From contig JAGWNK010000001.1 of NCBI GenBank assembly GCA_028871345.1, forward strand, positions 124,001-188,000: a stretch of 64,000 nucleotides of DNA. Direction: 5' to 3'. The notes below the pieces were generated by a model. It worked only from the letters and a program-made list of their open reading frames with translations. It did not search any database and was not told the DNA's origin. The DNA is from Alphaproteobacteria bacterium (GTDB lineage: Bacteria; Pseudomonadota; Alphaproteobacteria; Micropepsales; Micropepsaceae). Position 1 is the stretch's first letter. Each line of letters starts with the position of its first letter. The position numbers and the translations under genes were made by a program. Shown here one piece after another: positions 38,664 through 53,543 of this stretch.

Positions 38664-39002
38664 ATGGACGCCGAGCCCGACAAGGATGTCACCCGCTACG
38701 CCGACATGATGGCGGCGATGGGCGCCGAGCCGCGGCTGAGGATCATGCGCCTGCTGCTGGCCGCGCACCCCGGCGGCCTGGTGGTGGGCGAGATCGCCGG
38801 CGAGCTGGCCATCCCCCTCTCCACGCTTTCCCACCACCTCGACAAGCTGAAGAGCGAAGGGCTGGTGGGCGTGCGCCGCGAATCGACTTTCCTGCGCTAC
38901 AGCGCCAACCACGATGCGCTGCAGGAGCTGCTCGGCTTCCTCTACGCCGAGTGCTGCTCGCGCAACAAAGTCGTCGAACCCCAGAAAATCACCTGCTGCT
39001 GA
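38664..39002 (+). CDS. arsR: ArsR-family transcriptional repressor
   Basis: The 112-residue protein has a winged-helix domain (LRIMRLLLAAHPGGLVVGEI, then SHHLDKLKSEGLVGVRRES). Cysteine pairs occur at the end (LYAECCSRN and QKITCC); in this subgroup C-terminal cysteines bind arsenite and release DNA. It lies 13 bases ahead of arsM and 24 bases after a palindromic operator candidate, so an arsenic-inducible operon is the natural reading. Confidence 0.9.
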   Translation: MDAEPDKDVTRYADMMAAMGAEPRLRIMRLLLAAHPGGLVVGEIAGELAIPLSTLSHHLDKLKSEGLVGVRRESTFLRYSANHDALQELLGFLYAECCSRNKVVEPQKITCC

Positions 39003-39014
39003 CCGGAGGAAACG

Positions 39015-39833
39015 ATGTCCGCAACCGACGTGAAGGAAACCGTCCGCCAGAAATATGCCGAAGCCGCACGGCGCGCCGCCGACTCGGACAAGTCCTGCTG
39101 CTGCTCGGGCAAGAAGACGCAAGTCGACGACGCCATCAGCAAGAACCTCTACGCGGACGCCGAGATTGGCGCGCTGCCCGAGAAGGCGGTGCTCGCTTCC
39201 CTGGGCTGCGGCAATCCCACGGCACTCGCCGAACTGAAGGCGGGAGAGATCGTGCTCGATCTCGGCTCGGGCGGCGGCATCGACGTGCTGTTGTCGGCGC
39301 GCCGCGTGGGTCCCACGGGCAAGGCCTACGGACTCGACATGACCGACGAGATGCTGGCGCTCGCCCGCGACAACCAGAAGAAGGCGGGTCTCGCCAACGT
39401 CGAATTCCTCAAGGGCGAGATCGAGGCGATCCCCCTGCCCGACCGCTCGGTGGACGTCATCATCTCGAACTGCGTCATCAACCTATCGGGCGACAAGGAC
39501 AAGGTGTTTCGCGAGGCCTACCGCGTGCTCAAGCCGGGCGGGCGTTTCGCCGTTTCCGACATCGTGGTGCGCGGCGAGGTTCCCGAACACATCCTGAAGA
39601 ACGTGCTGTTGTGGGCGGGCTGCGTCGCCGGCGCCCTGCAGGACGGCGAATACAAGCGCAAGCTCGAAGCCGCCGGCTTCACCGGCGTCGAGATCGAGGT
39701 TACGCGCGTGCACCAGGCCGAGAACGCCCGCGAGTGGTTCAAGGAACTCGGCGTCGATTTCGACTCCGTCGCGCCCTATGTCGACGGCAAGTTCGTCAGC
39801 GCCTTCATTCGCGCCACCAAGCCCAAGAACTAG
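39015..39833 (+). CDS. arsM: Arsenite S-adenosylmethionine methyltransferase
   Basis: The 272-residue methyltransferase has SAM motif I in VLDLGSGGGIDVLLSARRVG and the arsenic cysteines of ArsM: the KSCCCSGKK cluster at the N-terminus, one in ISNCVINLS and one in WAGCVAGAL. It converts arsenite to methylated forms in the cytoplasm. GGAGG precedes the ATG. It is the second gene of the arsR operon. Confidence 0.93.
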   Translation: MSATDVKETVRQKYAEAARRAADSDKSCCCSGKKTQVDDAISKNLYADAEIGALPEKAVLASLGCGNPTALAELKAGEIVLDLGSGGGIDVLLSARRVGPTGKAYGLDMTDEMLALARDNQKKAGLANVEFLKGEIEAIPLPDRSVDVIISNCVINLSGDKDKVFREAYRVLKPGGRFAVSDIVVRGEVPEHILKNVLLWAGCVAGALQDGEYKRKLEAAGFTGVEIEVTRVHQAENAREWFKELGVDFDSVAPYVDGKFVSAFIRATKPKN

Positions 39834-41929: not shown

Positions 41930-42034
41930 AAGAGCACGGCACGACGTCGATCGCCTTGCCGCCAGCTAAGTCAGCGGCACCGGACCAGGGTTCGGCGGGA
42001 GAAGCGGTGGAATCTGCCTTCCAGGCAAAGCGCC

Positions 42035-42547
42035 TCAGAACACCATGGTCGCGTTGGACTTCTCGGCGGCGGAGAGGAAGGTGACGACCCCGCCCACTTC
42101 GACCCCGTCGATCAGTTCTTCCTGCCTGATGCCCATCACGTCCATGGACATCGAACAGGCCACCAACCGCACGCCTTGTTCCCTTGCGCTGGCGATCAGC
42201 TCGGGCAGCAGCTTCACGTTCTTCTTCTTCATGACGTGCTTCATCATGGTGGTGCCCATTCCCATCATGTTCATTTTCGACAGTTTGAGCTTGTCAGGAC
42301 CTTTGGGCATCATGAAGCCGAACATCTTGGCCAGCAGGTCCTTGCCTTTCGAACTCGCCGGCTTGCGCAGGACGTTCAATCCCCAGAACGCGAAGAACAT
42401 GGTGACCGGGCTGTCCATGGCCGCCGCTCCGTTGGCGATGACGAACGCGGCAAACGCCTTGTCGAGATCGTCGGAAAACATCAGCAGCGTCTTGCCGTCG
42501 CAGACGTTCGCCTGTCCCGGCCTTGCATCTTCCATCGTCGTATCCAT
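42035..42547 (-). CDS. DsrE/DsrF/DrsH-like protein
   Basis: The 170-residue product from ATG 42547 belongs to the DsrE-like family (LLMFSDDLDKAFAAFVIANG, TMFFAFWGLNVLRKP, the Met/Lys-rich KLSKMNMMGMGTTMMKHV and VRLVACSMSMDVMGI). The cysteine in LVACSMSMDVMG is at the position used for persulfide carriage in such proteins (compare DsrE2/DsrE3 types). It closes an operon that starts with a TusA-like carrier; TusA and DsrE proteins hand sulfane sulfur to each other in known sulfur oxidisers. 35 bases separate it from hdrB. Confidence 0.85.
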   Translation of the reverse strand: MDTTMEDARPGQANVCDGKTLLMFSDDLDKAFAAFVIANGAAAMDSPVTMFFAFWGLNVLRKPASSKGKDLLAKMFGFMMPKGPDKLKLSKMNMMGMGTTMMKHVMKKKNVKLLPELIASAREQGVRLVACSMSMDVMGIRQEELIDGVEVGGVVTFLSAAEKSNATMVF

Positions 42548-42582
42548 CGTTTCAGGTCCCTTCACCGGTAAACCAGCATGCT

Positions 42583-43560
42583 CTAGCGGCCCGCCGACGC
42601 CTTTCGACGGCAGGCGGCCAAGGTGCTGGCAATGTCGTTGATGACGAGCCTGTTGCCGGCGGCCTTGCCAAGGTTCACCCAGCAGAACGGGCACATGGTC
42701 ACCACGTTTTTCCCCTCGGCTTCGAGTTGATCCACGCGATTTCCCGAAATTCGGTGCGCCTCGGACGGGAACAGCGACTCGATCGGTCCACCGCAGCAGT
42801 GCGTCGACTTGGCGGCCAGTTTCGGTTCGCGAACGGCGAGGCCCGCCGCCCGCAGCAGCTCGCGGGGTTGTTCGGCAATGTTCTCGTAGCGCGCATAGAC
42901 GCAGGAGTCGTGCACCACGACTTCCCCGTTCACCGGCGCCACGGCCTTCGGGTGCTTCTCAGCCAGCACTTCCAGGTAGTTCTGGACCTCGATGTCAAAA
43001 TCCTTGACGAAGTGCGGATATGCCCGGCGGAACATCTTGGTGGTATGCGGGTCCACCGTGATCAGGCGCCTGACCCCCAGCTTCTTCAGATGCGCCGCCA
43101 CACGACGGGCATGCCGGCCGAAGGCCTCGTCAAGTCCGTTGTCATAAAGAAGCGGGCCGGCGTAGAACTCGTCCTCATACAGATAACCGAACTCAATACC
43201 CGCGTCGCGAAGCAGCCCGACGATGTCGCGCAACACCTGGTTGGACCGTCGCGCCTTTTTCGGCGACGCGACCAGGCTCATGAAGAAGGACAGGCTTACG
43301 AGCTTGTTGACCAGGCGGCCCAGGCCGAAGAACCGGGTGAGAAACGAATTCTCGAGCAAGGCAAGCTGCGAGGACATCGCCTCGATGGCCGGCACCATCT
43401 GATACATGTGCCCGGTGTAGAGAACCGTCTCGCCGCCGCGCGGCAGGTCGAGCCCACGGGCCCAACCGGTCGCCGTCCGTTTCGACAGGGGCAGAACGCT
43501 GCCGCGCTGGCGCACGTTGTCGGCAAAAATTCCAAGGATGGGTGCAATCGGAATGGGCAT
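42583..43560 (-). CDS. HdrB-like heterodisulfide reductase subunit
   Basis: The 325-residue protein has one complete CCG-type cysteine cluster: VVHDSCVYARYENIA, THCCGGPIESL and VTMCPFCWVNLGKA. The equivalent region in the first half (GETVLYTGHMYQMVP) lacks the cysteines, so only one of the two non-cubane [4Fe-4S] sites of methanogen HdrB seems possible. This matters because the paired clusters cleave the heterodisulfide in the archaeal enzyme. It follows HdrC by nine bases. Bacterial HdrB-like proteins work on unknown disulfides or sulfur substrates; the cytoplasmic membrane face is the likely place. Confidence 0.85.
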   Translation of the reverse strand: MPIPIAPILGIFADNVRQRGSVLPLSKRTATGWARGLDLPRGGETVLYTGHMYQMVPAIEAMSSQLALLENSFLTRFFGLGRLVNKLVSLSFFMSLVASPKKARRSNQVLRDIVGLLRDAGIEFGYLYEDEFYAGPLLYDNGLDEAFGRHARRVAAHLKKLGVRRLITVDPHTTKMFRRAYPHFVKDFDIEVQNYLEVLAEKHPKAVAPVNGEVVVHDSCVYARYENIAEQPRELLRAAGLAVREPKLAAKSTHCCGGPIESLFPSEAHRISGNRVDQLEAEGKNVVTMCPFCWVNLGKAAGNRLVINDIASTLAACRRKASAGR

Positions 43561-43569
43561 GCGGTCTTC

Positions 43570-43875
43570 CTAAGTCAGGTCGAAGTCTTCCCGGGTGATC
43601 AGGCAACGCAGCGTGCGCATGTTCTCGGCGATGCGGACGCCCTGCGGACAGTTGGCTTCGCACATGCGGCACAAGAGGCAGGAGAAGATCTGCGGGATGC
43701 TGGCGCGGACTTCGTCTCCAAGACCCAGCATGGCCTCGCGGAACAGCTTGCGGGGAAGGATCTTGTAGCCCAGCGGACACAGCGCCGTGCAGGTGCCGCA
43801 GTGGAAGCACGAGCCCGCGTTGAATCCCTCCTCCTTCTTCAAGCGGGCCGCCAGGTCCGACGATACTCTGATCAT
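43570..43875 (-). CDS. HdrC-like 4Fe-4S protein
   Basis: The 101-residue protein has two classic ferredoxin motifs, CFHCGTCTALCP and CLLCRMCEANCP, spaced as in HdrC. It should pass electrons between HdrA and HdrB. It begins 19 bases after the small winged-helix-like gene and is followed directly by hdrB, so the two are one unit. Confidence 0.9.
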   Translation of the reverse strand: MIRVSSDLAARLKKEEGFNAGSCFHCGTCTALCPLGYKILPRKLFREAMLGLGDEVRASIPQIFSCLLCRMCEANCPQGVRIAENMRTLRCLITREDFDLT

Positions 43876-43894
43876 GTTGTCCCTCGTCGCCCTC

Positions 43895-44146
43895 TCACGG
43901 CCGCTTCATGAGCTCGTATTGGAAGTATCCGTCGGCGCCTGCGCGGCCGATCCCTTCGACCAGGCCATAGCGGCGCATCCCGAACAGCCAGACCATGACT
44001 TCCCGCGACGGGCAGCCGAGGATCTCGGCCAGTTCGGGAATGGTCTTCGGGCCCTGTTCCAGAAGATCTGCGATGCGGTCCCGCATGACCATTTCGTCCT
44101 GGGCGATATCGAGCATGTCGCGCAGTTGCGTCCGGGACTCGCTCAT
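43895..44146 (-). CDS. Small winged-helix-like protein in the Hdr operon
   Basis: The 83-residue product starts MSESRTQLRDMLDIAQDEMV and has a helix-turn-helix-like core (GPKTIPELAEILGCPSREVM, VWLFGMRRYGLVEGIG) resembling DprA/MarR-type wings. Its ATG overlaps the hdrA stop (ATGA), and hdrC follows. A conserved small 'hyp' gene at this place is known in bacterial sulfur-oxidising Hdr clusters; whether this is its counterpart needs alignment. Regulator, assembly factor or complex subunit are all possible. Confidence 0.7.
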   Translation of the reverse strand: MSESRTQLRDMLDIAQDEMVMRDRIADLLEQGPKTIPELAEILGCPSREVMVWLFGMRRYGLVEGIGRAGADGYFQYELMKRP

Positions 44147-45894
44147 GCCGGCACCGTTTCCTTGAGACTCGCATCGATCATGGCCACGATCTGGTCGTCG
44201 CGGTAACCCTCGATGACGATGGCGTCCTGCGGGCAGATCGGGACGCAGGCCCCTTCTCCCTTGCACGAGGACTCGATCACGGTCGCCACTTCCTTGTCGC
44301 CGTACAGCACGCGCTCGATCGCGCCATAAGGGCAGGCCTTGAGGCATTCGTTGCACCAGACGCACTTGCTGGTGTCGATCTTGGCGACGAGCGGCTCGAG
44401 GTCCACATAGCCTTTCTTCAGCAGGGCGCCGGTCCTGGCCACTGCCGCCAGGGACGACGCGACGCTCTCGGCCAGGTTCTTGGGACCTTGCGAAGTTCCC
44501 GCGATGCACACGCCGTCGATGGCGGTTTCGACCGGCCGCAGCTTGATGTGAATCTCGTTGTAAAATCCGTCCTTGCTCTTGGGTATCTTCAGCACGTCGT
44601 CGAGCGCGCCGTTCTTCCGGGGAACCATGCCGGTGGCGAGCACCACGAGGTCCGCGCCGATCTCCAGCTCTTCGTCGCCCAAGAGCGTGTCCTTGACCTT
44701 GACGGCGAGCCGGCCGTTGCGCTGTTCCACGCGCGGCGGATCGCTCGGATCCCAGCGCAGGAAAAGCGCCCCGTCGGCGCGCGCCTTGGCATACACGGTC
44801 TCCAGTCGCCCGTAGGTGCGCACGTCGCGATAGAGGTGGTATTGATTGATGGTCCGACCGAACTTCTTCTCATGTTCGTGCAGCAGGCTGCCGCTGAAGG
44901 CCGTGGCCATGCAGCAAAAGCGCGAACAGTGCGTGTTGGGCTCCGGGCAGTCTTCGCTTTCCGTCTGGCGGCTGCCGACACAGTAGATGAAGCCGACGTC
45001 CCGCACCGGAACGCCCCGGTAGGTCAGCGGGCCGTCGCCCTCCTCGAGCAGCTGGCGGAATTCCTTCAGCGTCACGACGCCGGGCAGGCCCCAGCCATAT
45101 TCGCCGTCGCGCGGCTCGTAGGGCGTAAACCCCGTGGCCACGACGATCGCCCCGACGTTGAGGGTAAGGTCCTTTTCCCCGCACAGACGGATCGTCACCG
45201 TGAAATCGCCGATATGGCCGCTCTTCGCCGTCAGTTCGGCATTGGTGTAGAGAACGACGTTCTCATGGTTCTTGACCTCTTTCAGCAGCTTCGCCACGAC
45301 CTCGGGGCCATGCTGATGGTCGGGGCCCATCCATCCGACCTGCGAAGTCCACCCCCCAGGCTCGTTTTCGCGCTCGATGACGAAGACCGACAGTCCCATT
45401 TCGGCAAGCGCGATGGCGGCGCGCATGCCCGCCACCCCTGCGCCGACGACCAGAACGCGCGGCTGGGTTTCGATGCGAAGCGGGGTGAGCGGATGGGTAA
45501 GGGCGCATTTGGCCACCCCGGCACGCACGATGTTGATGCCCTTCGCTGTCGCTGCCGCCTTGTCGCCGCCATGCACCCAGGAGCACTGCTCGCGCAGATT
45601 GACGTGCACATATTGGTAGGGATTGAGACCGGCGCGTTGCGCCATGGCGCGGAAGGTGAATGTGTGGAGTTTCGGGGAACAGGAGGCGATCACGAGACCG
45701 TCAAGCTTCCTGTCCTTGATCTCGTCGATCATTTCCTGCTGCGAAGCGTCCGAGCAGGCGAACAGATGGGTCCGCGCGACCTCCACATCCGCTTCGCCCG
45801 CCAGCGTCCGGGCGACATCCTTGACGTCCACATGATCGGAGATGTTGCCGCCGCAATGACAGACGTAGACGCCGATTCGCCGCTTGTTTGTCAT
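44143..45894 (-). CDS. HdrA-like flavin/iron-sulfur subunit
   Basis: The 583-residue protein starts with RRIGVYVCHCGGNISDHVDV, the HdrA N-terminal block, then an FAD site (LVVGAGVAGMRAAIALAEMG), the HdrA cysteine region in IYCVGSRQTESEDCPEP and HCSRFCCMATAFSG, and two C-terminal ferredoxin motifs (CVWCNECLKACP and CKGEGACVPICP). In methanogens HdrA is the electron-bifurcating flavoprotein. Its ATG overlaps the stop of the larger HdrA-GltD gene by four bases, pointing to a fixed-ratio complex. Cytoplasmic. Confidence 0.9.
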   Translation of the reverse strand: MTNKRRIGVYVCHCGGNISDHVDVKDVARTLAGEADVEVARTHLFACSDASQQEMIDEIKDRKLDGLVIASCSPKLHTFTFRAMAQRAGLNPYQYVHVNLREQCSWVHGGDKAAATAKGINIVRAGVAKCALTHPLTPLRIETQPRVLVVGAGVAGMRAAIALAEMGLSVFVIERENEPGGWTSQVGWMGPDHQHGPEVVAKLLKEVKNHENVVLYTNAELTAKSGHIGDFTVTIRLCGEKDLTLNVGAIVVATGFTPYEPRDGEYGWGLPGVVTLKEFRQLLEEGDGPLTYRGVPVRDVGFIYCVGSRQTESEDCPEPNTHCSRFCCMATAFSGSLLHEHEKKFGRTINQYHLYRDVRTYGRLETVYAKARADGALFLRWDPSDPPRVEQRNGRLAVKVKDTLLGDEELEIGADLVVLATGMVPRKNGALDDVLKIPKSKDGFYNEIHIKLRPVETAIDGVCIAGTSQGPKNLAESVASSLAAVARTGALLKKGYVDLEPLVAKIDTSKCVWCNECLKACPYGAIERVLYGDKEVATVIESSCKGEGACVPICPQDAIVIEGYRDDQIVAMIDASLKETVPA

Positions 45895-48626
45895 TGCCGC
45901 CCTCCCGACCGTTCGAGATAGGCCGCCGCCTGGGTCGCCGCCGCGCCGGAGTGCAGCACGGTGTCGGGGATATCCATCACGCCGATCGTGGTGCCCGCCA
46001 CGAAGAGGCCATCGACGTTCGTGCGGGCCGGTTCGCTGATGGGATCGACCTCGCGCACGTAGCCGAAATCGTCCGCCGCCAGCTCTCCGCCCTTGTAGAG
46101 GGAAAACACGTCGGTATTGGGCAGGAAGCCGACAGTCAGGACCACGAGGTCGTGTTCGCGGATCTTCCGGCCGCCTTCGCCCAGCATGTCTTCGTAGTGC
46201 AGAGCCAGATTGCCGTTGGCAAGCTGCTCGATGCGCGCAACCTTGCCCTTGACGAATTCGATCCCCATGTCCTTGGCTTGCTCGTAGAATTCGTTATAGC
46301 CCTTGCCGAAGGCGCGAACGTCGATCATGTAGATGGTGATTTCGGCCATCGGCAAAGCGCCCATGGCGAGCTGCGCCTGCTTGATCGCGTACATGCAGCC
46401 GATGCGGCAGCACAGCGGATTACACACCGTCTCGTCGCGCGAGCCGACGCACAGGATGATGGCGATGCGCTCAGGCTCCTTGCCGTCCGAGGGCCGCAAT
46501 ACGGCATTGTAGGGTCGAGTCGGCGCCAGCAACCGGTCCATCTGCGGCCCGCTGATCACGTCGGGGAACCGGCCGTATCCCAAGAGCTCCTTGGTCGCGG
46601 GATCGAGGATCTTGAAGCCGGTCGAAACCACCACCGCGCCCACATTGAGCGACAGGGGCGTCGGCTTCTGCGCGAAGTCGATGCATTTGGGGGCGCAGAC
46701 GCTGACGCATTCCATGCACTGGGAGCACTCCGCGCAGTTCATGCAGCGCTGGGCCTCCTGCCGCGCCTCCGCCTCCGACATCGCCTTCTCGTAGCATTCG
46801 AAGGTCTTGCGGCGTTCGTCGGGCGGCAGCGCCGGTTGGGGAACGGGGCGCCGCTCCACGAAGCGCTTCGCTTCTTCGAGCACGGCCGCCTTGCCGGTCT
46901 TGTCCAAGACGCCATCGAACGGCACGTCGAGCGGCTCGCCCTTCAGGCGACGGTCGATGTAGAACGCCGCCCGGCGTCCTTGCGCGACGGCGTTGATGAT
47001 CATCGTGGGCGCCGTCACGCAGTCCCCGCAGGCAAAGACATCGGGATCGGCCGTCTGCAGGGTCTGCGGGTTGGCGACCAGAAGGCCTTTGCCGTTCTTC
47101 ATTTCGGCGGGGAAATCGGTGGTGGACGGCGCCAGGCCGATGGCGAGAACCGCCACGTCGGCGGGAACCGTTTTCTCCGAGCCTTCGATCGGAACCGGGC
47201 GACGGCGGCCGCTCTCGTCCGGGGCACCCAAGACCATGCTGATGCATTCGACGGCGACGAGCTTGCCGTCCTTGCCGATGAACCGCTTGGGCGTGCTCAT
47301 GAGCATGAGCTCGACGCCTTCTTCTTCGGCCCCCCGTATTTCCCAGTCGTGCGCCGGCATCTCCTGGCGCCCGCGCCGATAGTTGATGATGACCCTGCCG
47401 GCTCCCATGCGGATGGCGGCCCTGGCCGGGTCCATGGCCGAATTGCCGCCGCCGATGACCATGACGGTCTTGTTCTTCACGTCGGGCAGCTTCCCGACAT
47501 TGACGTCATGCAGGAATTGCATGCAGCCCACGACGCCATCCAGATCACGACCTTCGATGTCCAGACTGTTTTCGTCCGAGGCGCCGGTCGTGATCAGGAC
47601 GGCGTCGAATCCCTGCCGTTTGAGCTCCGGCAAAGAGGTCACCCGGTGACCGGTCCTGATCTCGACGCCCAGCGCCGTCACGTTCTTGATGTCGCGGTCG
47701 ACGACATCCTTGGGAAGGCGGTAGGCCGGTATGGCGGTGCGCAGCATGCCGCCCGCCTCCCTTTCCGCCTCGAAGATCGTCACCTGGTGGCCGAGACGCG
47801 CGAGGTAGAAGGCGGCGCTCAGTCCCGCCGGACCGGAACCGACGATCGCGACGCGCGTCTCCAGTTGGTTCTCGACCGGACCGTATTCCGGTTCGGGGTG
47901 CTCGGCATAGTAGCGGTCGACCATGAACCGCTTGATGGCGCGGATGTGAACCGTGCCCTCCTTCTCGCCGCGCGTGCAGTCTGATTCGCACGGCGCATAG
48001 CAGGCCCGCGCCAAACTGCCCACCAGAGGCGCATTTTCGAGATGCAGGGCGAACGCCTCCTTGTAGCGGCCCGCCCTGACCAGCGAGACGTAGCCGCTCG
48101 CCTTGACGTTGGCCGGACAGGTGAAGGTGCATGGCGCCTCGCCGCGCCGTTGGATCACGGCCTTCTTGGGCACCGCCTGCGGAAAAGCGATGTGGGCCGC
48201 CCGGCGCGTGACCAGGCCGTAGTTGTACTCGTCCGGAATGGCGACCGTGCAGATTTCTTCGCACTTGCCGCACCCTGTGCAGGCGTCGAAGTCGACAAAG
48301 CTCGCTTTCTTGTGCAACTCCACGGCAAAGGAGCCGTCGGAGTTGCGCGCGATGGCGTCGACCTCGCTGTAGGTCATGAGCTGCACGTTGGGGTGATGCG
48401 AAACCGACGCCATTTTCGGCGTCACGATGCAGCTGGCGCAATCGAGCGTCGGAAACACCTTGCTGAGGAGGATGGCCCGCCCGCCGACGCTGGCGTTCTT
48501 GTCCACCAGCAGAACGCGGTAGCCCATGTCGCCCATCGACGCCGCGGTTTCCATGCCGGCGACGCCGGCGCCGACAACCATCACGTCGTAGTCGAGAAGA
48601 CGTCCATCGGCGTCAGGCTTCAACAC
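45891..48626 (-). CDS. HdrA-GltD fusion: FAD/NAD(P)H/iron-sulfur oxidoreductase, 911 aa
   Basis: Domains in order are as follows. An HdrA-type FAD site (VMVVGAGVAGMETAASMGDM) leads with FPTLDCASCIVTPKMAS. A ferredoxin motif CTGCGKCEEIC follows (about residue 117). A glutamate-synthase small-subunit module then begins with GltD-type cysteines (CTFTCPANVKASGY, ACYAPCESDCTRGE), its FAD site VAIVGSGPAGLSAAFYLARL and its nucleotide site VMVIGGGNSAMDPARAAIRM. Another cysteine cluster (CMNCAECSQCMECVSVCAPK) leads back to an HdrA C-terminal part with LCVGSRDETVCNPLCC. So a GltD domain is spliced into the middle of an HdrA. It probably links the Hdr complex to NAD(P)H. It overlaps the MvhD-like gene by 14 bases. 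Confidence 0.88.
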   Translation of the reverse strand: MLKPDADGRLLDYDVMVVGAGVAGMETAASMGDMGYRVLLVDKNASVGGRAILLSKVFPTLDCASCIVTPKMASVSHHPNVQLMTYSEVDAIARNSDGSFAVELHKKASFVDFDACTGCGKCEEICTVAIPDEYNYGLVTRRAAHIAFPQAVPKKAVIQRRGEAPCTFTCPANVKASGYVSLVRAGRYKEAFALHLENAPLVGSLARACYAPCESDCTRGEKEGTVHIRAIKRFMVDRYYAEHPEPEYGPVENQLETRVAIVGSGPAGLSAAFYLARLGHQVTIFEAEREAGGMLRTAIPAYRLPKDVVDRDIKNVTALGVEIRTGHRVTSLPELKRQGFDAVLITTGASDENSLDIEGRDLDGVVGCMQFLHDVNVGKLPDVKNKTVMVIGGGNSAMDPARAAIRMGAGRVIINYRRGRQEMPAHDWEIRGAEEEGVELMLMSTPKRFIGKDGKLVAVECISMVLGAPDESGRRRPVPIEGSEKTVPADVAVLAIGLAPSTTDFPAEMKNGKGLLVANPQTLQTADPDVFACGDCVTAPTMIINAVAQGRRAAFYIDRRLKGEPLDVPFDGVLDKTGKAAVLEEAKRFVERRPVPQPALPPDERRKTFECYEKAMSEAEARQEAQRCMNCAECSQCMECVSVCAPKCIDFAQKPTPLSLNVGAVVVSTGFKILDPATKELLGYGRFPDVISGPQMDRLLAPTRPYNAVLRPSDGKEPERIAIILCVGSRDETVCNPLCCRIGCMYAIKQAQLAMGALPMAEITIYMIDVRAFGKGYNEFYEQAKDMGIEFVKGKVARIEQLANGNLALHYEDMLGEGGRKIREHDLVVLTVGFLPNTDVFSLYKGGELAADDFGYVREVDPISEPARTNVDGLFVAGTTIGVMDIPDTVLHSGAAATQAAAYLERSGGRQ

Positions 48627-49023
48627 GCTTCAGCTCCTGTTGAAAATTGTTCATATGCGCGACGAAGTTATCGGCGCATACGGAACAAAGGCCCGCCATC
48701 TTCAACCGCTTCGGGCTGATCCCGTGCTCTTTCAGGAGTGTCTGGGCCCGAGACACGAGCGCGCTGGTGCGGCTGGTGCAATCGGGAAGATAGGCGCAGT
48801 CGCCTCCGCAGGCGGCGATGAACACGCCATCGAAACCGTGCTGCAGGGCGCGAACGATCCATGAAGGCTTGACGCCGCTCGAGCACGGCAAAGGGACGAC
48901 CTGCACTGCCGTCGAATAGTGCAGGTGCGCACTGCCCGCCCTGTCGATCCCCGGATCCGAAATGGAATTGGTCGAGAACACCAGGATGCGCGGATCACGC
49001 GATGTCGTACCGCCTGACGTCAT
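48613..49023 (-). CDS. MvhD-like iron-sulfur protein
   Basis: The 136-residue protein has cysteines arranged as in MvhD/FrhD: VVPLPCSSGVKPSWIVRALQ, FIAACGGDCAYLPDC and GLCSVCADNF. MvhD carries a [2Fe-2S] cluster and connects HdrA to a hydrogenase or other donor in methanogens; in bacteria it is part of many Hdr-like and Qmo-like complexes. Its ATG overlaps the TusA stop by one base (TGATG). No hydrogenase is present, so the GltD module of the next gene is the obvious partner. Confidence 0.87.
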   Translation of the reverse strand: MTSGGTTSRDPRILVFSTNSISDPGIDRAGSAHLHYSTAVQVVPLPCSSGVKPSWIVRALQHGFDGVFIAACGGDCAYLPDCTSRTSALVSRAQTLLKEHGISPKRLKMAGLCSVCADNFVAHMNNFQQELKRVEA

Positions 49024-49274
49024 CACTTGCCTCGCCTGACGAACACTCGCCAGTAGCCGGCTTCCTCGAGGTTGCCGAGATATTCGTGCCCGACCTTCTT
49101 GGCCCACAGCGGAATATCCTCGTTGGTCCCGCGATCGGACGACAGGACTTCCAGGACCCCTGTCACCGGGACCCCGGCCATCGCGCGTTTGGCTTCGAGC
49201 AAAGGGCCGGGACACGCCGTGCCCCGAGCGTCGACGGTCTTGGTTGGGTTCAGCGTTTTCAGATCAATTGTCAT
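49023..49274 (-). CDS. TusA-like sulfur carrier protein
   Basis: The ~83-residue protein has the persulfide-bearing Cys in the signature TACPGPLLEAKRAM (CPGP). TusA proteins carry sulfane sulfur to acceptors, including Hdr-like and Dsr-type sulfur-oxidation systems. It is the first gene of the Hdr operon. A GTG three codons upstream (49283) is an alternative start. The last part reads WAKKVGHEYLGNLEEAGYWR, typical for TusA relatives that lack the rest of tRNA thiolation. About 85 bases upstream is a palindromic operator candidate. Confidence 0.9.
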   Translation of the reverse strand: MTIDLKTLNPTKTVDARGTACPGPLLEAKRAMAGVPVTGVLEVLSSDRGTNEDIPLWAKKVGHEYLGNLEEAGYWRVFVRRGK

Positions 49275-49664
49275 GTCACTCACTCTTGCCGGCTTGGCGT
49301 TGTGGAGTCCGTTTCAGTTTTCCCGGACGCGCGTCGGTCGACGTCTGCGACTTGTCGCGCACTCATATTCATACTTTCGAATATTCATACACCCAAATAA
49401 CACGACCACACCCATGCACATCGTCGCAGACCTGAGGCCTGCGCGGCGGATGCGACGATTTCGGCAGTTCAGTTTGAGTGCGAATTGCGGGCGCGTTTGC
49501 GCGAGTTCCGCAGCAGGTGAGCGCGCGCCTTGGACCGACACTCTTTGTACGTAGTTATCCTGACGACGGCGCTGCCGGTCCATGCGGCGCGGCACTTTCG
49601 CGAACGGTTCCTGTCGTCCTGCATCCAGCGCCCTTACCGTGTCACGAATGTCTGCGCCGGCGGC
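49275..49664. other. Intergenic region between the regulator and tusA
   Basis: About 390 bases. The left third holds the tusA promoter and operator (AT-rich patch at 49360-49420). The rest encodes nothing convincing on either strand. Confidence 0.5.
49367..49382. promoter_or_regulatory. ATTC-N8-GAAT operator candidate before the tusA-hdr operon
   Basis: ATTC-ATACTTTC-GAAT sits in an AT-rich patch 93 bases before the tusA ATG, and its right half is itself in the palindrome GAATATTC (49379-49386). The same ATTC-N8-GAAT form occurs at 50676-50691. This is the operator form I recall for SqrR/BigR-type persulfide sensors, and such a regulator is encoded at 49665. Confidence 0.7.
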
Positions 49665-50102
49665 TTAGGATACTTGGCGCTCTCTTCGCGACCGAAGCCT
49701 TGCCGGTGCACTTGCGACATGGGGTCGCTCGGCGCGTTTCGGTTCACCCTCCTTCGCCGCACGCCGGACAGATCGCGCGTCCGGAGTCGCGGCGCAATAA
49801 TGCTTGTGGAGCGTCAGAAGCAGGTCCGTGACGATCGTGCTGTTCAGCGAATAGTAGATGTTCTGGGCGACGCGGTGCGTGTTCACCAGTTCCCGGTGGC
49901 GCAAAACCATCAGGTGCTGGGACAGGGCCGATTGACGCAGTCCCGTGACGCGCTCCAGTTCGCCGACCGTCTTTTCACCGCTGACGAGCTGGCAGACGAC
50001 CAGCAGGCGCCATTTGCTGCCGATGATGCGCAGAAGCGCCGATGCGCGCTCGGCATTGCGCTCCAGTACTTTGAGATCGGAACTAAGTCTCGGCGATGCC
50101 AT
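49665..50102 (-). CDS. ArsR-family regulator of the SqrR/BigR (persulfide-sensing) type
   Basis: The 145-residue protein from ATG 50102 (GGGAGC upstream) has the winged helix LLVVCQLVSGEKTVGELERV, then LRQSALSQHLMVLRHRELVN. Two cysteines stand out: Cys37 in VVCQLVSGEK and Cys103 in HKHYCAATPD. Their spacing of 66 equals that of the redox pair in Rhodobacter SqrR (Cys41/Cys107), which forms a tetrasulfide on reaction with sulfane sulfur and leaves the DNA. A long Arg-rich tail follows. Together with the two matching operators this makes a sulfide/persulfide-responsive repressor of the neighbouring operons likely. The metal ligands of arsenic sensors are absent. Confidence 0.85.
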   Translation of the reverse strand: MASPRLSSDLKVLERNAERASALLRIIGSKWRLLVVCQLVSGEKTVGELERVTGLRQSALSQHLMVLRHRELVNTHRVAQNIYYSLNSTIVTDLLLTLHKHYCAATPDARSVRRAAKEGEPKRAERPHVASAPARLRSRRERQVS

Positions 50103-50671
50103 GTCGTGCTCCCGCTTCCGCCCGGGCTGCGGCCCGAGATCCCTCAATAATGAAATTCCACCTTCAGAGCCAGTACTTAACGGTATTGCGGCGCCGGTCG
50201 GCCGCGGTTCTCCTAGCAGATGCCGATGTTGGCGCGAGCCAGCCCTGCGCGGGAAACCGTCATCGCCGTTGATCTCCTCGCAGCGAATCATCTTGTGCGG
50301 GCCGAGCGCCGTCGCTTCCGCAAACCGAGCGCGATGCCCAGCGGATATTCTCCCGCCAGCGGACCGCTGAATGTGTTGCGAACCTTCCCCGCGGACCGAC
50401 GCGCTGATGCTAAGTCGCGCTCTCGCGGAATTCATAAGGCACTGAGGCGCGCCGACTGAACCAAGACCATGACACGCTCGTGTTGCGCCTTCACTTGTTC
50501 ATCACACGTGAATCCGAACAGTGGGCGCGCGCCACTTGTTGCCCGTGGATCGCAATAGCGCGGGACGTCGTTCGATCACGGAGTGCGGTCGAAGGACCGC
50601 GCGACAAAACGCTCCCTAGCGGAACTTTTCATCGGACACTAGAAGAAAAACTGCCGTCATTCAGATAACTC
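50103..50671. other. Intergenic region upstream of the regulator
   Basis: About 570 bases with no supported gene. It must hold the promoter of the SqrR-like regulator. At 50618-50642 there is a sequence resembling the right end of the hairpin elements at 40101-40175 (it ends CGGACACTAG), possibly a decayed copy. Confidence 0.45.
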
Positions 50672-50695
50672 TAATATTCGAACATTCGAATATTA
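50672..50695. promoter_or_regulatory. 24-bp perfect palindrome, operator of the plus-strand operon
   Basis: TAATATTCGAA-CA-TTCGAATATTA has perfect 11-base arms around a two-base centre and contains ATTC-N8-GAAT at 50676-50691. It lies 40 bases before the ATG of the 50735 gene, just where a repressor would block the promoter. It matches the form of the 49367 site, so one regulator probably controls both. Confidence 0.8.
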
Positions 50696-50734
50696 CGGTT
50701 GTATTTGACACGACCGTGAGGAGCAAGTGACCTG

Positions 50735-51046
50735 ATGAGTCCGGCACACCGCGTCCTGCTGCAATTCGCCGGTCTGCTGCTCTCTTGGTTGCTTCTGAAC
50801 GGTACGCAGGCCGCCGATGCCGCCGCATCGATGATCGGTCTCGTCGCCGCCGTCGCGGTCGCCCTGGCTGTGGCGGGCGGTCTCTGTCTCCTGGTGCAAT
50901 GCTCGACGCGAAGCACCATCGCTGCGGCGCTGACCAGCATCAACCTTTTCACCAAGAACCTTGCCAAAGCCATTTCGACGCCCGTCAACGACGGCCGCCT
51001 GGATGGCCAAGCGCGGGTTCGCCGGACACAAACGAGAGAACCATGA
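50735..51046 (+). CDS. Small membrane protein, 103 aa, first gene of putative sulfur-responsive operon
   Basis: The product has two hydrophobic segments (about residues 8-28 and 33-56, the second being ASMIGLVAAVAVALAVAGGL) and a polar tail (NDGRLDGQARVRRTQTREP). GAGGAG lies 13 bases before the ATG. It stands between the perfect palindrome and the FadL-type gene, 11 bases from the latter. I recognise no family. Cys-51 and Cys-56 lie at the end of the second membrane segment. Confidence 0.65.
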   Translation: MSPAHRVLLQFAGLLLSWLLLNGTQAADAAASMIGLVAAVAVALAVAGGLCLLVQCSTRSTIAAALTSINLFTKNLAKAISTPVNDGRLDGQARVRRTQTREP

Positions 51047-51057
51047 AGGGGAATCAG

Positions 51058-52347
51058 ATGAGAAAAGCGGCGTTGTTGTCGGTGGCGGCAGCAGCTCTTG
51101 CCTGCGGATCGCTGGCAGTATCTGCCCAGGCGACCGAAGGCTATTTCATGCCCGGGTACAGCGCCCCGCAAAAGGCCATGGCGGGCGCTGGCGTCGCCAA
51201 TCCCGAGGACGCCATGGCGCTGGCGACCAATCCTGCCGGCATCGTCGCGGTTGGAGAGGAATTCGAAATGGGCGTTTCCCTGTTCACGCCCGACCGAAAA
51301 TACACGGCAACGGGCCCCGGTTTCGTCGCTCCAGGCGGCATGAATTCGGGAAGCGTGGCGAGCCGCAACAAATTCTTCCTGGTACCGGGCATGGCCTACA
51401 ACCAGCCGATCGATGACCACTCGTCGTGGGGTGTGGCGATGTACGCCAATGGCGGCATGAATACCGACTACCCCGCCGTCGCCAACGCGAGCTGTCCGAC
51501 CGGCTATTCCGGCGTGTTCTGCGGCGGCAAGACCGGCGTGAACCTGAACCAGATGTTCGTTTCGGTCGGCTATGCCTGGCAGTCCGGCAAACTGTCGCTG
51601 GGCATCGCACCGACGGTCGTGCTGCAGATGTTCAGCGCCAACGGCCTGGCGCTGTTCGGTATGTACGGCCTGTCGTCCGATCCCGCCAACCTCAGCGACC
51701 GCGGCATTTCCTACTCCTATGGCGGCGGCCTGCGCGCCGGTGCGATCTGGGCGGTGACCCCGGACCTGCGACTGGCCGTGAGCGGTTCGACGCCGATGTG
51801 GATGACAAAGTTCACGAAATACAAGGGATTGTTTGCCGGCGGCGGTTCATTCGACATCCCCGCCAGCGTCACGGCAGGCGTGGCGTGGGATGCCTCGTCC
51901 GACCTGACCCTGATGTTGGACTACAAGCATATCTTCTATGGGGGCGTCGAGTCGGTCTCCAATTCGCCCGAGAACGCCGACTTCTTCGGGAAGGACGACG
52001 GACCGGGCTTCGGTTGGGAAGACGTCGACGTGATCTCGTTCGGCACCGCGTTCAAACTGACTCCGGATTGCACCTTGCGCGCCGGATACGCCCACAACAA
52101 CAACCCGATCGACCAGGACGACGTGACGATGAACATCCTGGCGCCCGGTGTGGTGACGGACCACTTCTCGGCGGGCCTCAGTCACAGGCTCGGCGAGCAC
52201 TCCATCCTCGACTTCGCCGCGATGTATGTGCCGTCGCATTCGGTAAGCGGCATCGAGATGACGCCGATGGGACCCAACCCGTATCGCACGATCAAGCTCT
52301 CGATGAGCGAGACCGACTTCACGATCGGATATCGCTACCAGTTCTGA
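51058..52347 (+). CDS. FadL/OmpP1-type outer-membrane transporter
   Basis: The 429-residue protein has a signal peptide (RKAALLSVAAAALACGSLAVSA) and then the family's N-terminal hatch-like sequence with MAGAGVANPEDAMALATNPA (the NPA motif), many amphipathic strands, and the aromatic end TDFTIGYRYQF typical of outer-membrane barrels. FadL proteins let hydrophobic molecules pass the outer membrane. ATG 51058 has AAGGGG upstream; ATG 51043 is an alternative. Placed behind a putative persulfide-responsive operator, it may take up a hydrophobic sulfur compound (inference). Confidence 0.88.
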   Translation: MRKAALLSVAAAALACGSLAVSAQATEGYFMPGYSAPQKAMAGAGVANPEDAMALATNPAGIVAVGEEFEMGVSLFTPDRKYTATGPGFVAPGGMNSGSVASRNKFFLVPGMAYNQPIDDHSSWGVAMYANGGMNTDYPAVANASCPTGYSGVFCGGKTGVNLNQMFVSVGYAWQSGKLSLGIAPTVVLQMFSANGLALFGMYGLSSDPANLSDRGISYSYGGGLRAGAIWAVTPDLRLAVSGSTPMWMTKFTKYKGLFAGGGSFDIPASVTAGVAWDASSDLTLMLDYKHIFYGGVESVSNSPENADFFGKDDGPGFGWEDVDVISFGTAFKLTPDCTLRAGYAHNNNPIDQDDVTMNILAPGVVTDHFSAGLSHRLGEHSILDFAAMYVPSHSVSGIEMTPMGPNPYRTIKLSMSETDFTIGYRYQF

Positions 52348-52420
52348 TATGCGCAGATCTGGAGAGATGTAGCCGCGTCTCTCCAGATCGGCCTCACCTC
52401 AAATGGAAGGGGAATTCTTC

Positions 52421-52804
52421 ATGCAGCGGGGAAAACTGTTCGCCGTAGCCTTCATGGTTGCGGCGATCGCCGGCGCTGCGCCGGCAAGCGCCGCCGATAT
52501 GAAAGCGATGGTCGGCACGTGGAAGTGGACCGATTACACGATCCAGGTCAAGGAATGCACGACGAACCCGGCAGGCGCCGGCTTGTGCGCCACGGTCGTC
52601 GCCGGGCCAAAGAACGTCGGCATGGAGATGTTCCGCTCGAAGCTCGAGGCAAAGCCGGACGGCAGCTTCGTCGGCAAGATCGGCCATCCTGCTTCCGGCG
52701 AAACCTACAACACCAAGATGACGATCGCCGGAGACGTCTGGCACATGAACGGCTGCACCGACGCCGGCGTCTGCGCCACGGGCGACTTCGTCCGGCAGAA
52801 ATAG
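52421..52804 (+). CDS. DUF2147-like exported protein
   Basis: The 127-residue product has a signal peptide (LFAVAFMVAAIAGAAPASAA) and then MVGTWKWTDYTIQVKECTTN, a lipocalin-like beta pattern as in DUF2147. Mature cysteines occur in VKECTTN, GLCATVV, NGCTDAG and GVCATGD, which may form two disulfides in the periplasm. ATG 52421 is preceded by GGAAGGGG. It is read together with the FadL gene, 73 bases upstream. Function unknown. Confidence 0.75.
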   Translation: MQRGKLFAVAFMVAAIAGAAPASAADMKAMVGTWKWTDYTIQVKECTTNPAGAGLCATVVAGPKNVGMEMFRSKLEAKPDGSFVGKIGHPASGETYNTKMTIAGDVWHMNGCTDAGVCATGDFVRQK

Positions 52805-52818
52805 CGCGGAGGCGTGTC

Positions 52819-53169
52819 TTGAAGCAGACCATGCTTGACCTGATGGTCAAAATGATGCCGCTGATGATGCCGCTCGTCTATGTGGCAGGCGTGCTCCTGG
52901 TGACCGCGGTGCTGTCGCTCGCGGTCCACCTTACGTCCGACAGGGCGGGTGGCATCGCCCGCTTCGCGGCGTGGCTCCTGGCGGCAATGGGCGTGTTCTT
53001 CCTCGCCTGCCAGGCGGCCGGGATGTGGCTTGGCGCGACACCATCGATCAACTTCGGCGATTCTGCGAAATTCGAGTTCGACCTGAAACCGTTCTGGCAG
53101 GTCGGACTCGCGATGCTCATTCCGGGCACCTTGATCGGCTGGCTCGCCGGGCACGCCAGGCACGACTAG
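52819..53169 (+). CDS. Uncharacterised membrane protein, 116 aa
   Basis: Three hydrophobic segments are seen (LMMPLVYVAGVLLVTAVLSL, FAAWLLAAMGVFFLACQAAG and VGLAMLIPGTLIGWLAGHAR). I use the TTG at 52819, which has GGAGGC seven bases upstream; ATG 52831 is the conservative choice. It starts 14 bases after the DUF2147 gene and ends the plus-strand operon. I do not recognise the family. Confidence 0.6.
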   Translation: MKQTMLDLMVKMMPLMMPLVYVAGVLLVTAVLSLAVHLTSDRAGGIARFAAWLLAAMGVFFLACQAAGMWLGATPSINFGDSAKFEFDLKPFWQVGLAMLIPGTLIGWLAGHARHD

Positions 53170-53543
53170 CGATGCGAACCAATGTGACGCCGTCGGGCGT
53201 TGGCGACCCGTCCGCCCATGCCGCCGGCGCGGTTCCGGTATTCATGCCGTGAGGAACAGGCTTGGACAGCGCTGACGGCGACTGTTCGGCCACAAGCGCC
53301 CGGCGCAGTTATGACCGAATGTTCCGGCGGCGCGCCGCGGATCGCACCGTTTCGTTCGGCGCGGCGAACTTTCCCGCAACAACAAAAAAACGCTGCACTG
53401 CAGCGATCGACGCGCCTGACAGCGTTGGCATCGCGATCGACCCGCACCGGAACCGACAGACGCACCATTGTGGCAATCAGCCTGAACGGCAAGGGGCGCC
53501 AACATCGTGTAGCGTCTGAATCGCAAACGGATGGAGAGGCACG
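53170..53543. other. Intergenic region upstream of amtB
   Basis: About 370 bases with no supported protein gene. It contains a terminator-like hairpin oriented to the minus strand (53384-53405) and presumably the amtB promoter. No glnK gene is present in it. Confidence 0.5.
53384..53405 (-). terminator. Intrinsic terminator-like hairpin on the minus strand
   Basis: CGCTGC-ACT-GCAGCG on the plus strand (53391-53405) is preceded by seven As, so on the minus strand it reads as a six-pair GC-rich stem followed by seven Ts. All flanking genes are on the plus strand, so it would end an unannotated minus-strand RNA starting in or before amtB's leader. Confidence 0.5.

Follow-up and report, generated by a model that had tools for sequence, protein, structure and literature searches.

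An eight-gene operon that combines the sulfur carrier TusA and the sulfurtransferase-like protein DsrE with Hdr-type subunits is present in DNA of an alphaproteobacterium (Alphaproteobacteria bacterium, Micropepsaceae; assembly GCA_028871345.1, contig JAGWNK010000001.1, positions 124,001-188,000), whose genome is 99.94% complete. The stretch of 64,000 nucleotides analysed is referred to as the window, and coordinates given without a locus number are positions in it. The operon is real and conserved, it lies outside the described complexes with which it was compared here, and its parts are of known kinds. The reading that we prefer, at a probability of about 40%, is that of one Hdr-type complex, fed by TusA and DsrE, which would exchange electrons between sulfane sulfur and NAD(P)H and carry a swappable terminal module for a third partner. 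As the original prediction had described, eight intact genes run on the minus strand from 49274 to 42035 in the order tusA-mvhD-hdrA(GltD)-hdrA-wHTH-hdrC-hdrB-dsrE (wHTH, winged helix-turn-helix); in transcription order they are joined by overlaps of 1, 14, 4, and 4 bases and then separated by gaps of 19, 9, and 35 bases.

49023..49274, minus strand: tusA, sulfur carrier of 83 amino acids with a CPGP motif (PF01206, 75.8 bits)
48613..49023, minus strand: mvhD-like gene, free-standing [2Fe-2S] electron-transfer protein of 136 amino acids (PF02662, FlpD/MvhD, 103.2 bits)
45891..48626, minus strand: hdrA(GltD), GTG start, 911 amino acids with an inserted GltD NAD(P)H module in a type III HdrA layout (HdrA2 profile 422.7 bits, cut-off 1100; GltD-type NAD(P)-binding profile 457.4 bits, cut-off 516)
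44143..45894, minus strand: hdrA, 583 amino acids (HdrA2 profile 469.8 bits, cut-off 1100)
43895..44146, minus strand: wHTH, small acidic winged-helix protein of 83 amino acids, named from its predicted structure and winged-helix matches
43570..43875, minus strand: hdrC, 101 amino acids with two [4Fe-4S] motifs (HdrC profile 51.7 bits, cut-off 160)
42583..43560, minus strand: hdrB-like gene, 325 amino acids with an HdrB-type fold (CCG, 44.7 bits)
42035..42547, minus strand: dsrE, sulfurtransferase-like protein of 170 amino acids of the DrsE_2 kind (PF13686, 198.5 bits)

The subunit names first proposed agree with Pfam and NCBIfam, with three refinements: HdrB holds a single CCG site, DsrE is of the PF13686 kind, and the sole family match of the wHTH protein, to PF21476, is under the cut-off. 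The two HdrA scores and the HdrC score fall far short of the cut-offs set for the methanogen families, and the NAD(P)H module predicted within one HdrA is present as a GltD insertion with its nucleotide motif. The TusA segment DARGTACPGP is unchanged in 13/13 aligned rows.

The gene set is conserved but rare. It was found at 30 loci in 29 genomes, namely the host, a congener (G061), ten Pseudomonadota metagenome-assembled genomes (MAGs), and 17 genomes of the class that holds the Kiritimatiellales, and the order tusA-mvhD-hdrA(GltD)-hdrA-wHTH is constant at every locus as far as its contig extends. In the large genome searches, the best 3 to 5 first-look candidates of each genome were scored. 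In the host's order, an HdrB-like match was found in 16 of 96 genomes, full-length in the host (100%) and G061 (87%) only, the remaining 14 being partial with 22-37% identity; in the host's class, 8 of 385 genomes matched at E 1e-20, the seven besides the host partially, at 31-36%, in longer frames; and in the host's phylum, 45 of 398 genomes held an HdrA-like match at 1e-15, the best after the host being 38% identical. Similarly, one of 399 genomes matched at 1e-50 in the order of a Sterolibacterium MAG, namely that MAG, and 17 of 240 matched at 1e-130 in the class of a Kiritimatiellales MAG (G487). A named genome collection yielded 32 pattern matches and 15 loci, under the names Hyphomicrobiales, Roseiarcus, Rhodocyclaceae, Sterolibacterium, Rhodoferax, Thiobacillaceae, and other betaproteobacteria, as well as Kiritimatiellales, Pontiellaceae, and a Verrucomicrobia MAG; all are MAGs, so absences there are weak evidence, and in one genome (G486) HdrCB lies on a different contig from the rest of the operon. 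Plasmid-borne copies were also considered and rejected, the single matching plasmid record being a Flox-type HdrABC set of Ilyobacter (37.6%). The gene dsrE differs in position and is far more variable in sequence: it is downstream of the other genes at three loci (the window, G061, and L030) but upstream at the other loci where it is seen, and its product is 27-36% identical to that of the window in the eight other Pseudomonadota loci that have it and 48-54% identical in L040-L044. The gene set was not found described in the open-licence PMC texts searched, which is no proof that no description exists.

The relation of the operon to described complexes was examined in a tree of 43 HdrA-type sequences (IQ-TREE, LG+C20+F+G4, GltD removed), which covered HdrA-type proteins only and 11 of the 30 loci. 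Operon HdrA (11 rows), HdrA(GltD) (10), QmoA (6), QmoB (6), and sHdrA (5) each split off with 99-100% support, and the two operon clades, each at 100/100, stand apart from QmoA, QmoB, and sHdrA. The QmoA and QmoB references were taken from L137, L173, and L175-L178 and the sHdrA references from L168-L172, with names assigned from their layout and similarity. The three methanogen rows do not cluster together, and the operon HdrA clade falls on their side of the midpoint with long branches; the program also flagged as long the branch by which one type II half joins this clade, and that join was not used. The HdrA(GltD) of L030 is broken in its contig and was excluded from the tree and the residue alignment, and the copy of L032, also broken, was partly aligned. 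A search for conserved gene order and an HdrA tree were among the checks that the original prediction had proposed, and both uphold its view of a distinct Hdr-type gene set, which is conserved elsewhere and differs from sHdr in having a single HdrB and HdrC with no second pair, two HdrA proteins, and MvhD. Three points go beyond that prediction: the one-site HdrB, the exchange of HdrC-HdrB for a QmoC-like subunit in relatives, and the lack of AprA, DsrA, and SoxB over the cut-off in the host.

Individual features of the operon are shared with several known systems. Type III HdrA of methane-metabolising archaea, in the available part of its description, likewise has GltD inserted beside the inserted ferredoxin domain, with a proposed use of NAD(P)H (PMC12054007), but HdrA(GltD) of the operon is without the N- and C-terminal domains, has a second, complementary HdrA, and is linked to TusA and DsrE; the likeness is one of domain layout, the archaeal sequences being outside the tree. 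MvhAGD-HdrABC (PDB 5odc) and Flox-Hdr share the electron-path modules MvhD, HdrA, HdrC, and HdrB, whereas the operon splits the HdrA functions over two proteins, has a one-site HdrB and a built-in NAD(P) module, and contains no hydrogenase or FlxABCD gene. The YTD cluster also joins TusA and DsrE in a sulfur-handling gene set, but as given in the available part of its source it has YedE and hypothetical proteins and no Hdr subunits (PMC12998232), and no YedE is included among the eight genes of the operon.

Aligned to PDB 5odc_A, the 583-residue HdrA covers the N-terminal, flavin, and C-terminal ferredoxin domains and skips the inserted ferredoxin domain, while the 911-residue HdrA(GltD) has the flavin and inserted ferredoxin domains and is without the N-terminal domain and the C-terminal ferredoxin domain; because these losses are reciprocal, the two proteins are complementary halves. 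The match to 5odc_A is made by residues 15-160 and 633-905 of HdrA(GltD), with GltD sitting between them, within the inserted ferredoxin domain. A lysine (409) and glutamate (356) pair is named as a bifurcation feature of the HdrA flavin site in the available part of PMC12054007. The equivalent of Lys409 is retained in HdrA(GltD) at 30/30 loci and the position of Glu356 is aspartate at 30/30, and HdrA is without both residues in 11/11 aligned sequences, having Phe, Tyr, or His at 409 and Arg or Asn at 356 (Phe and Arg in the window). One cysteine of the last cluster of HdrA is also replaced at 28 of 29 readable loci, by glutamate in the window protein. The second nucleotide motif of GltD takes a YRR form at 19 and a CLE form at 9 of the 28 readable loci (30 in total), the latter being L043, L044, L114, L117-L121, and L123. 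We take the YRR form to be NADPH-like and the CLE form NADH-like, so that the two forms probably correspond to NADPH and NADH use. The presence of CLE in place of YRR might mark a coenzyme switch inside the family.

In 16 aligned members, HdrB has five invariant cysteines (C220, C255, C256, C290, and C293), which correspond to the second CCG site only, where the methanogen type has two CCG cluster sites. Its structural model (predicted local distance difference test score, pLDDT, 78.9) gave EtfD, LutA, and HdrB as best Foldseek matches, with racemases also among the matches at TM-scores near 0.3. The AlphaFold2 model of the wHTH protein (pLDDT 87.8) matches winged-helix structures, and its isoelectric point is 4.5-5.6 in 14/14 members computed. 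Because this protein is encoded inside the operon, travels with the HdrA proteins, and is acidic in all 14 members, we infer that it is a structural subunit or allosteric partner and not an ordinary repressor. Two other identities for it were rejected. The gene after sHdrA, which would be sHdrH by position, is 288-289 amino acids long in L170-L172 against 83 for wHTH, a rejection on length alone, and in L168 and L169 no frame of at least 60 amino acids follows sHdrA inside the stretch searched. DsrD (1wq2_A) ranked 47 in Foldseek amid many winged helices, which indicates a shared fold only, and it was missing from the 50 rows of a second structural comparison and from 18 profile-search hits of wHTH.

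Downstream of wHTH the operon exists in two forms. Across the 30 loci, HdrC-HdrB follows at 20, a QmoC-like protein at six (L042, L044, L099, L113, L114, and L122), and the contig ends at four (L031, L032, L040, and L123). The QmoC-like protein consists of an HdrC-type N-terminus and a membrane part and is 369-386 amino acids long in the five uncut copies; the four of six that were scanned scored 165.7-206.9 bits with the QmoC profile, all under the cut-off of 300. One genome (G489) holds a locus of each form, L043 and L044.

L042:12013-13143; L044:12787-13905; L113:6228-7388; L114:11744-12871; L122:11329-12438: QmoC-like protein, which replaces HdrC-HdrB

These parts suggest how the proposed complex might work. 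In MvhAGD-HdrABC, electrons enter at MvhD and leave by HdrC-HdrB. In the proposed complex, HdrA(GltD) and HdrA would pair as a heterodimer and make good each other's missing parts: HdrA(GltD) would contribute a flavin of the bifurcation type, the inserted ferredoxin domain, and a site for NAD(P), and HdrA the N-terminal domain and the C-terminal ferredoxin domain. By analogy with MvhAGD-HdrABC, a mid-potential electron pair would enter at MvhD; the high-potential branch would be HdrC-HdrB or, in some relatives, the QmoC-like and presumably quinone-reactive subunit, and the low-potential branch GltD, at the position of methanogen ferredoxin reduction. In the available part of PMC12054007, ferredoxin is reduced at the inserted ferredoxin domain and GltD there is proposed to let HdrA use NAD(P)H, with NAD(P)H viewed as the mid-potential partner, which differs from the low-potential placement proposed here. 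In the Pseudomonadota carriers the complex may run oxidatively, with the electrons of the persulfide going partly to NAD(P)+ and partly to a disulfide or quinone, so that NAD(P)H would form without reverse electron flow. The formation of a complex, TusA/DsrE as its donor, bifurcation, and direction are all inferred, and they differ in strength. A sulfur link is likely because TusA adjoins mvhD wherever the contig reaches, and an NAD(P)H link is likely because each of the 28 readable loci retains one of the two forms of the nucleotide motif; flavin-based bifurcation is possible. Oxidation is favoured for the Pseudomonadota MAGs, and reduction is at least as likely in the other carriers and in the host. 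The most specific version, in which bifurcation is driven by persulfide, with the TusA/DsrE donor at mid potential, NAD(P)+ via GltD at low potential, a disulfide or quinone via HdrCB or the QmoC-like subunit at high potential, and wHTH as an allosteric or structural protein that does not bind DNA, is unlikely.

The sulfur metabolism of the carriers bears on the direction. AprA exceeds the cut-off in 5 of the 16 carriers tested, and a sixth has fragments below it; DsrA does so in 8 of 16, with a ninth carrier showing a fragment, SoxB in 8 of 20, and RuBisCO in 12 of 29, the last including the host and G061 at 69-75 bits only. Over-cut-off AprA, DsrA, and SoxB and RuBisCO of more than 100 bits are confined to the ten Pseudomonadota MAGs, where RuBisCO is present in 10/10 at 117-466 bits (the lowest being contig-end fragments), DsrA at more than 320 bits in nine, and SoxB over the cut-off in eight; in the Roseiarcus MAG, the DsrA gene is on the contig of the operon, about 9 kb away. 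The weak RuBisCO-family matches of the host and G061 (G000:C18:112397-113146 and G061:C83:47196-47870) perhaps represent a RuBisCO-like protein. DsrC was considered as a universal partner and rejected, being present in 14 of 29 carriers and in neither the host nor G061. Within the class of G487, DsrC accompanies the QmoC-like form in 4 of 6 genomes and HdrCB alone in 0 of 10 (Fisher 0.008, uncorrected and post hoc; 16 genomes with hand-entered counts, G1076 excluded for a cut locus and G489, which has both forms, counted as QmoC-like). Other sulfur genes lie near relatives' operons: in L122, genes for type III SQR, DsrC, and a second DsrE stand in a row after the operon (L122:12605-14694), the SQR scoring 640 bits to an NCBIfam model named for the selenoprotein subtype, and SQR is also found at L040 and L123. 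In addition, a YeeE-type transporter (Sulf_transp) is encoded beside L037, and ArsR-type regulators and FadL-type proteins beside relatives' operons. Outside its operon, the host has CCG domains in two frames, whose surroundings (L001 and L004) contain no match to any of the eight proteins of the operon.

Several observations weigh against the preferred reading. HdrA(GltD) has aspartate instead of the glutamate of the bifurcation pair, and the complete pair is present in 12/12 QmoA/QmoB references, so it is no proof of bifurcation; the sHdrA references keep the glutamate in 5/5 and the lysine in 1/5. The operons with the QmoC-like protein encode no CCG site, and the sulfur chemistry therefore cannot need HdrB there. 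AprA, DsrA, SoxB, and DsrC are not over the cut-off in the host, where RuBisCO reaches 69 bits and the best match to the DsrA profile 43 bits; the host thus carries the operon while none of the markers tested points to a known route of sulfur oxidation. The carriers of the class of G487 have RuBisCO in 0/17, DsrA over the cut-off in 0/4 tested, and SoxB over it in 0/8 tested, so the oxidative direction is weakest there. Finally, no biochemistry was found for any member of the gene set in the open-licence PMC texts.

The lack of RuBisCO in the class of G487 and the weak or missing markers of the host fit a reductive role, in which electrons would pass from NAD(P)H through HdrA(GltD) and HdrA to HdrC-HdrB to reduce the TusA/DsrE persulfide to sulfide, for detoxification or as an electron sink, any bifurcation then reducing a second acceptor. 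Companion genes a few kb from the operon point the same way, as three loci encode 820-residue fusions of CoA-disulfide/persulfide reductase, rhodanese, TusA, and DsrE (L117:14294-16756, L118:1265-3727, and L120:14551-17013), and a similar fusion is interpreted in the available part of PMC7887784 as serving intracellular sulfur reduction. The ten Pseudomonadota MAGs, however, are sulfur oxidisers by their marker genes, and the QmoC-like versions of the operon point to the quinone pool; the reductive reading is somewhat less probable than the preferred one.

A divergent sHdr system, in which the complex itself would oxidise protein-bound sulfane sulfur to sulfite in place of sHdr-LbpA, is distinctly unlikely. 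The sHdr-LbpA genes form a syntenic block, shdrC1B1A-H-C2B2 in type I or C1B1A-H-B3 with etfAB in type II, and their partners include TusA, DsrE, and an ArsR-type regulator, as far as the available part of PMC11582611 goes. The operon resembles this arrangement in joining HdrA, HdrB, and HdrC proteins with TusA, DsrE, and a two-cysteine ArsR-type regulator, and the host has no Sox, Dsr, or Apr match over the cut-off. Neither type of sHdr synteny is found in the gene order of the window and its relatives, however, and the operon HdrA proteins do not share the sHdrA clade. The operon has one HdrB and one HdrC instead of C1B1-C2B2 or B3 with EtfAB, it adds GltD, MvhD, and an 83-residue winged helix where the gene after sHdrA is far longer at the three readable loci, and its HdrB, with a single cluster site, gives way to another protein at six loci.

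Least probable is a Qmo-like adaptor, an electron shuttle among NAD(P)H, a quinone or soluble carrier, and a separate enzyme served by TusA and DsrE: MvhD, a pair of HdrA-type proteins, and a terminal part made of either HdrCB or a QmoC-like membrane subunit do resemble QmoAB with QmoC or HdrCB and amount to the Qmo layout with MvhD split off (MvhD is fused to the C-terminus of QmoB in L137 and free-standing in the window), but both operon HdrA proteins fall in clades of their own, the GltD insertion, the winged helix, and TusA/DsrE set the operon apart, and the window operon is without a QmoC membrane subunit. AprAB is the usual partner of Qmo, and AprA is over the cut-off in only the five carriers mentioned and not in the host, where none exceeds the cut-off of 641.75 and the best match is 24.4 bits. 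One carrier (G479) has a QmoAB-HdrC-HdrB set on its AprA contig plus the eight-gene-type operon, so Qmo and the operon are not alternatives of one gene set.

Comparison with the congener also indicates how the operon may have been acquired. Over the 19 kb compared between the host and G061 (locus L045), matching DNA spans 42033-53170 (11.1 kb) in five pieces, with no match outside that span. It contains the operon, two small proteins, and the following genes:

49665..50102, minus strand: ArsR-type regulator, BigR-like, upstream of the operon (70.9 bits, cut-off 155), with two cysteines 66 residues apart
51043..52347, plus strand: OMPP1/FadL outer-membrane protein (PF03349, 77.9 bits)

In G061 a gene 84% identical to that of the regulator occupies the corresponding position, and the FadL-type protein has a 79% counterpart there and 23-26% relatives at seven loci of the class of G487; the span resembles an island acquired by transfer, which includes the ArsR-type regulator and the FadL-type porin. 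Identity between the window and G061 is 80% for TusA, 61% for MvhD, 57% for HdrA(GltD), 54% for HdrA, and 53% for wHTH, followed by 76% for HdrC, 87% for HdrB, and 78% for DsrE, and G061 branches first in both HdrA clades despite being a congener. The most economical explanation is an exchange of mvhD, hdrA(GltD), hdrA, and wHTH together, as a single block. Elsewhere in the window, at 38664-39833, an ArsR-type regulator adjoins a methyltransferase, for which Pfam gives general methyltransferase families only and which we take to resemble arsenite methyltransferase.

The operon is relevant to two questions, namely how sulfane sulfur is handled in the cytoplasm of bacteria without Dsr or sHdr and how sulfur lithotrophs form NAD(P)H from donors of too high a potential. 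In one compact, transferable cassette it unites a relay for sulfur with a flavin of the bifurcation type and a site for NAD(P), and its natural variants, with HdrCB or a quinone-type membrane end and with two nucleotide-motif forms, make both questions directly testable. The operon also serves to flag a possible sulfur trait in bacteria that would be scored as sulfur-inert by surveys of Sox, Dsr, and Apr. If true, bifurcation driven by sulfane sulfur would let sulfur oxidisers form NAD(P)H with no need for reverse electron transport.

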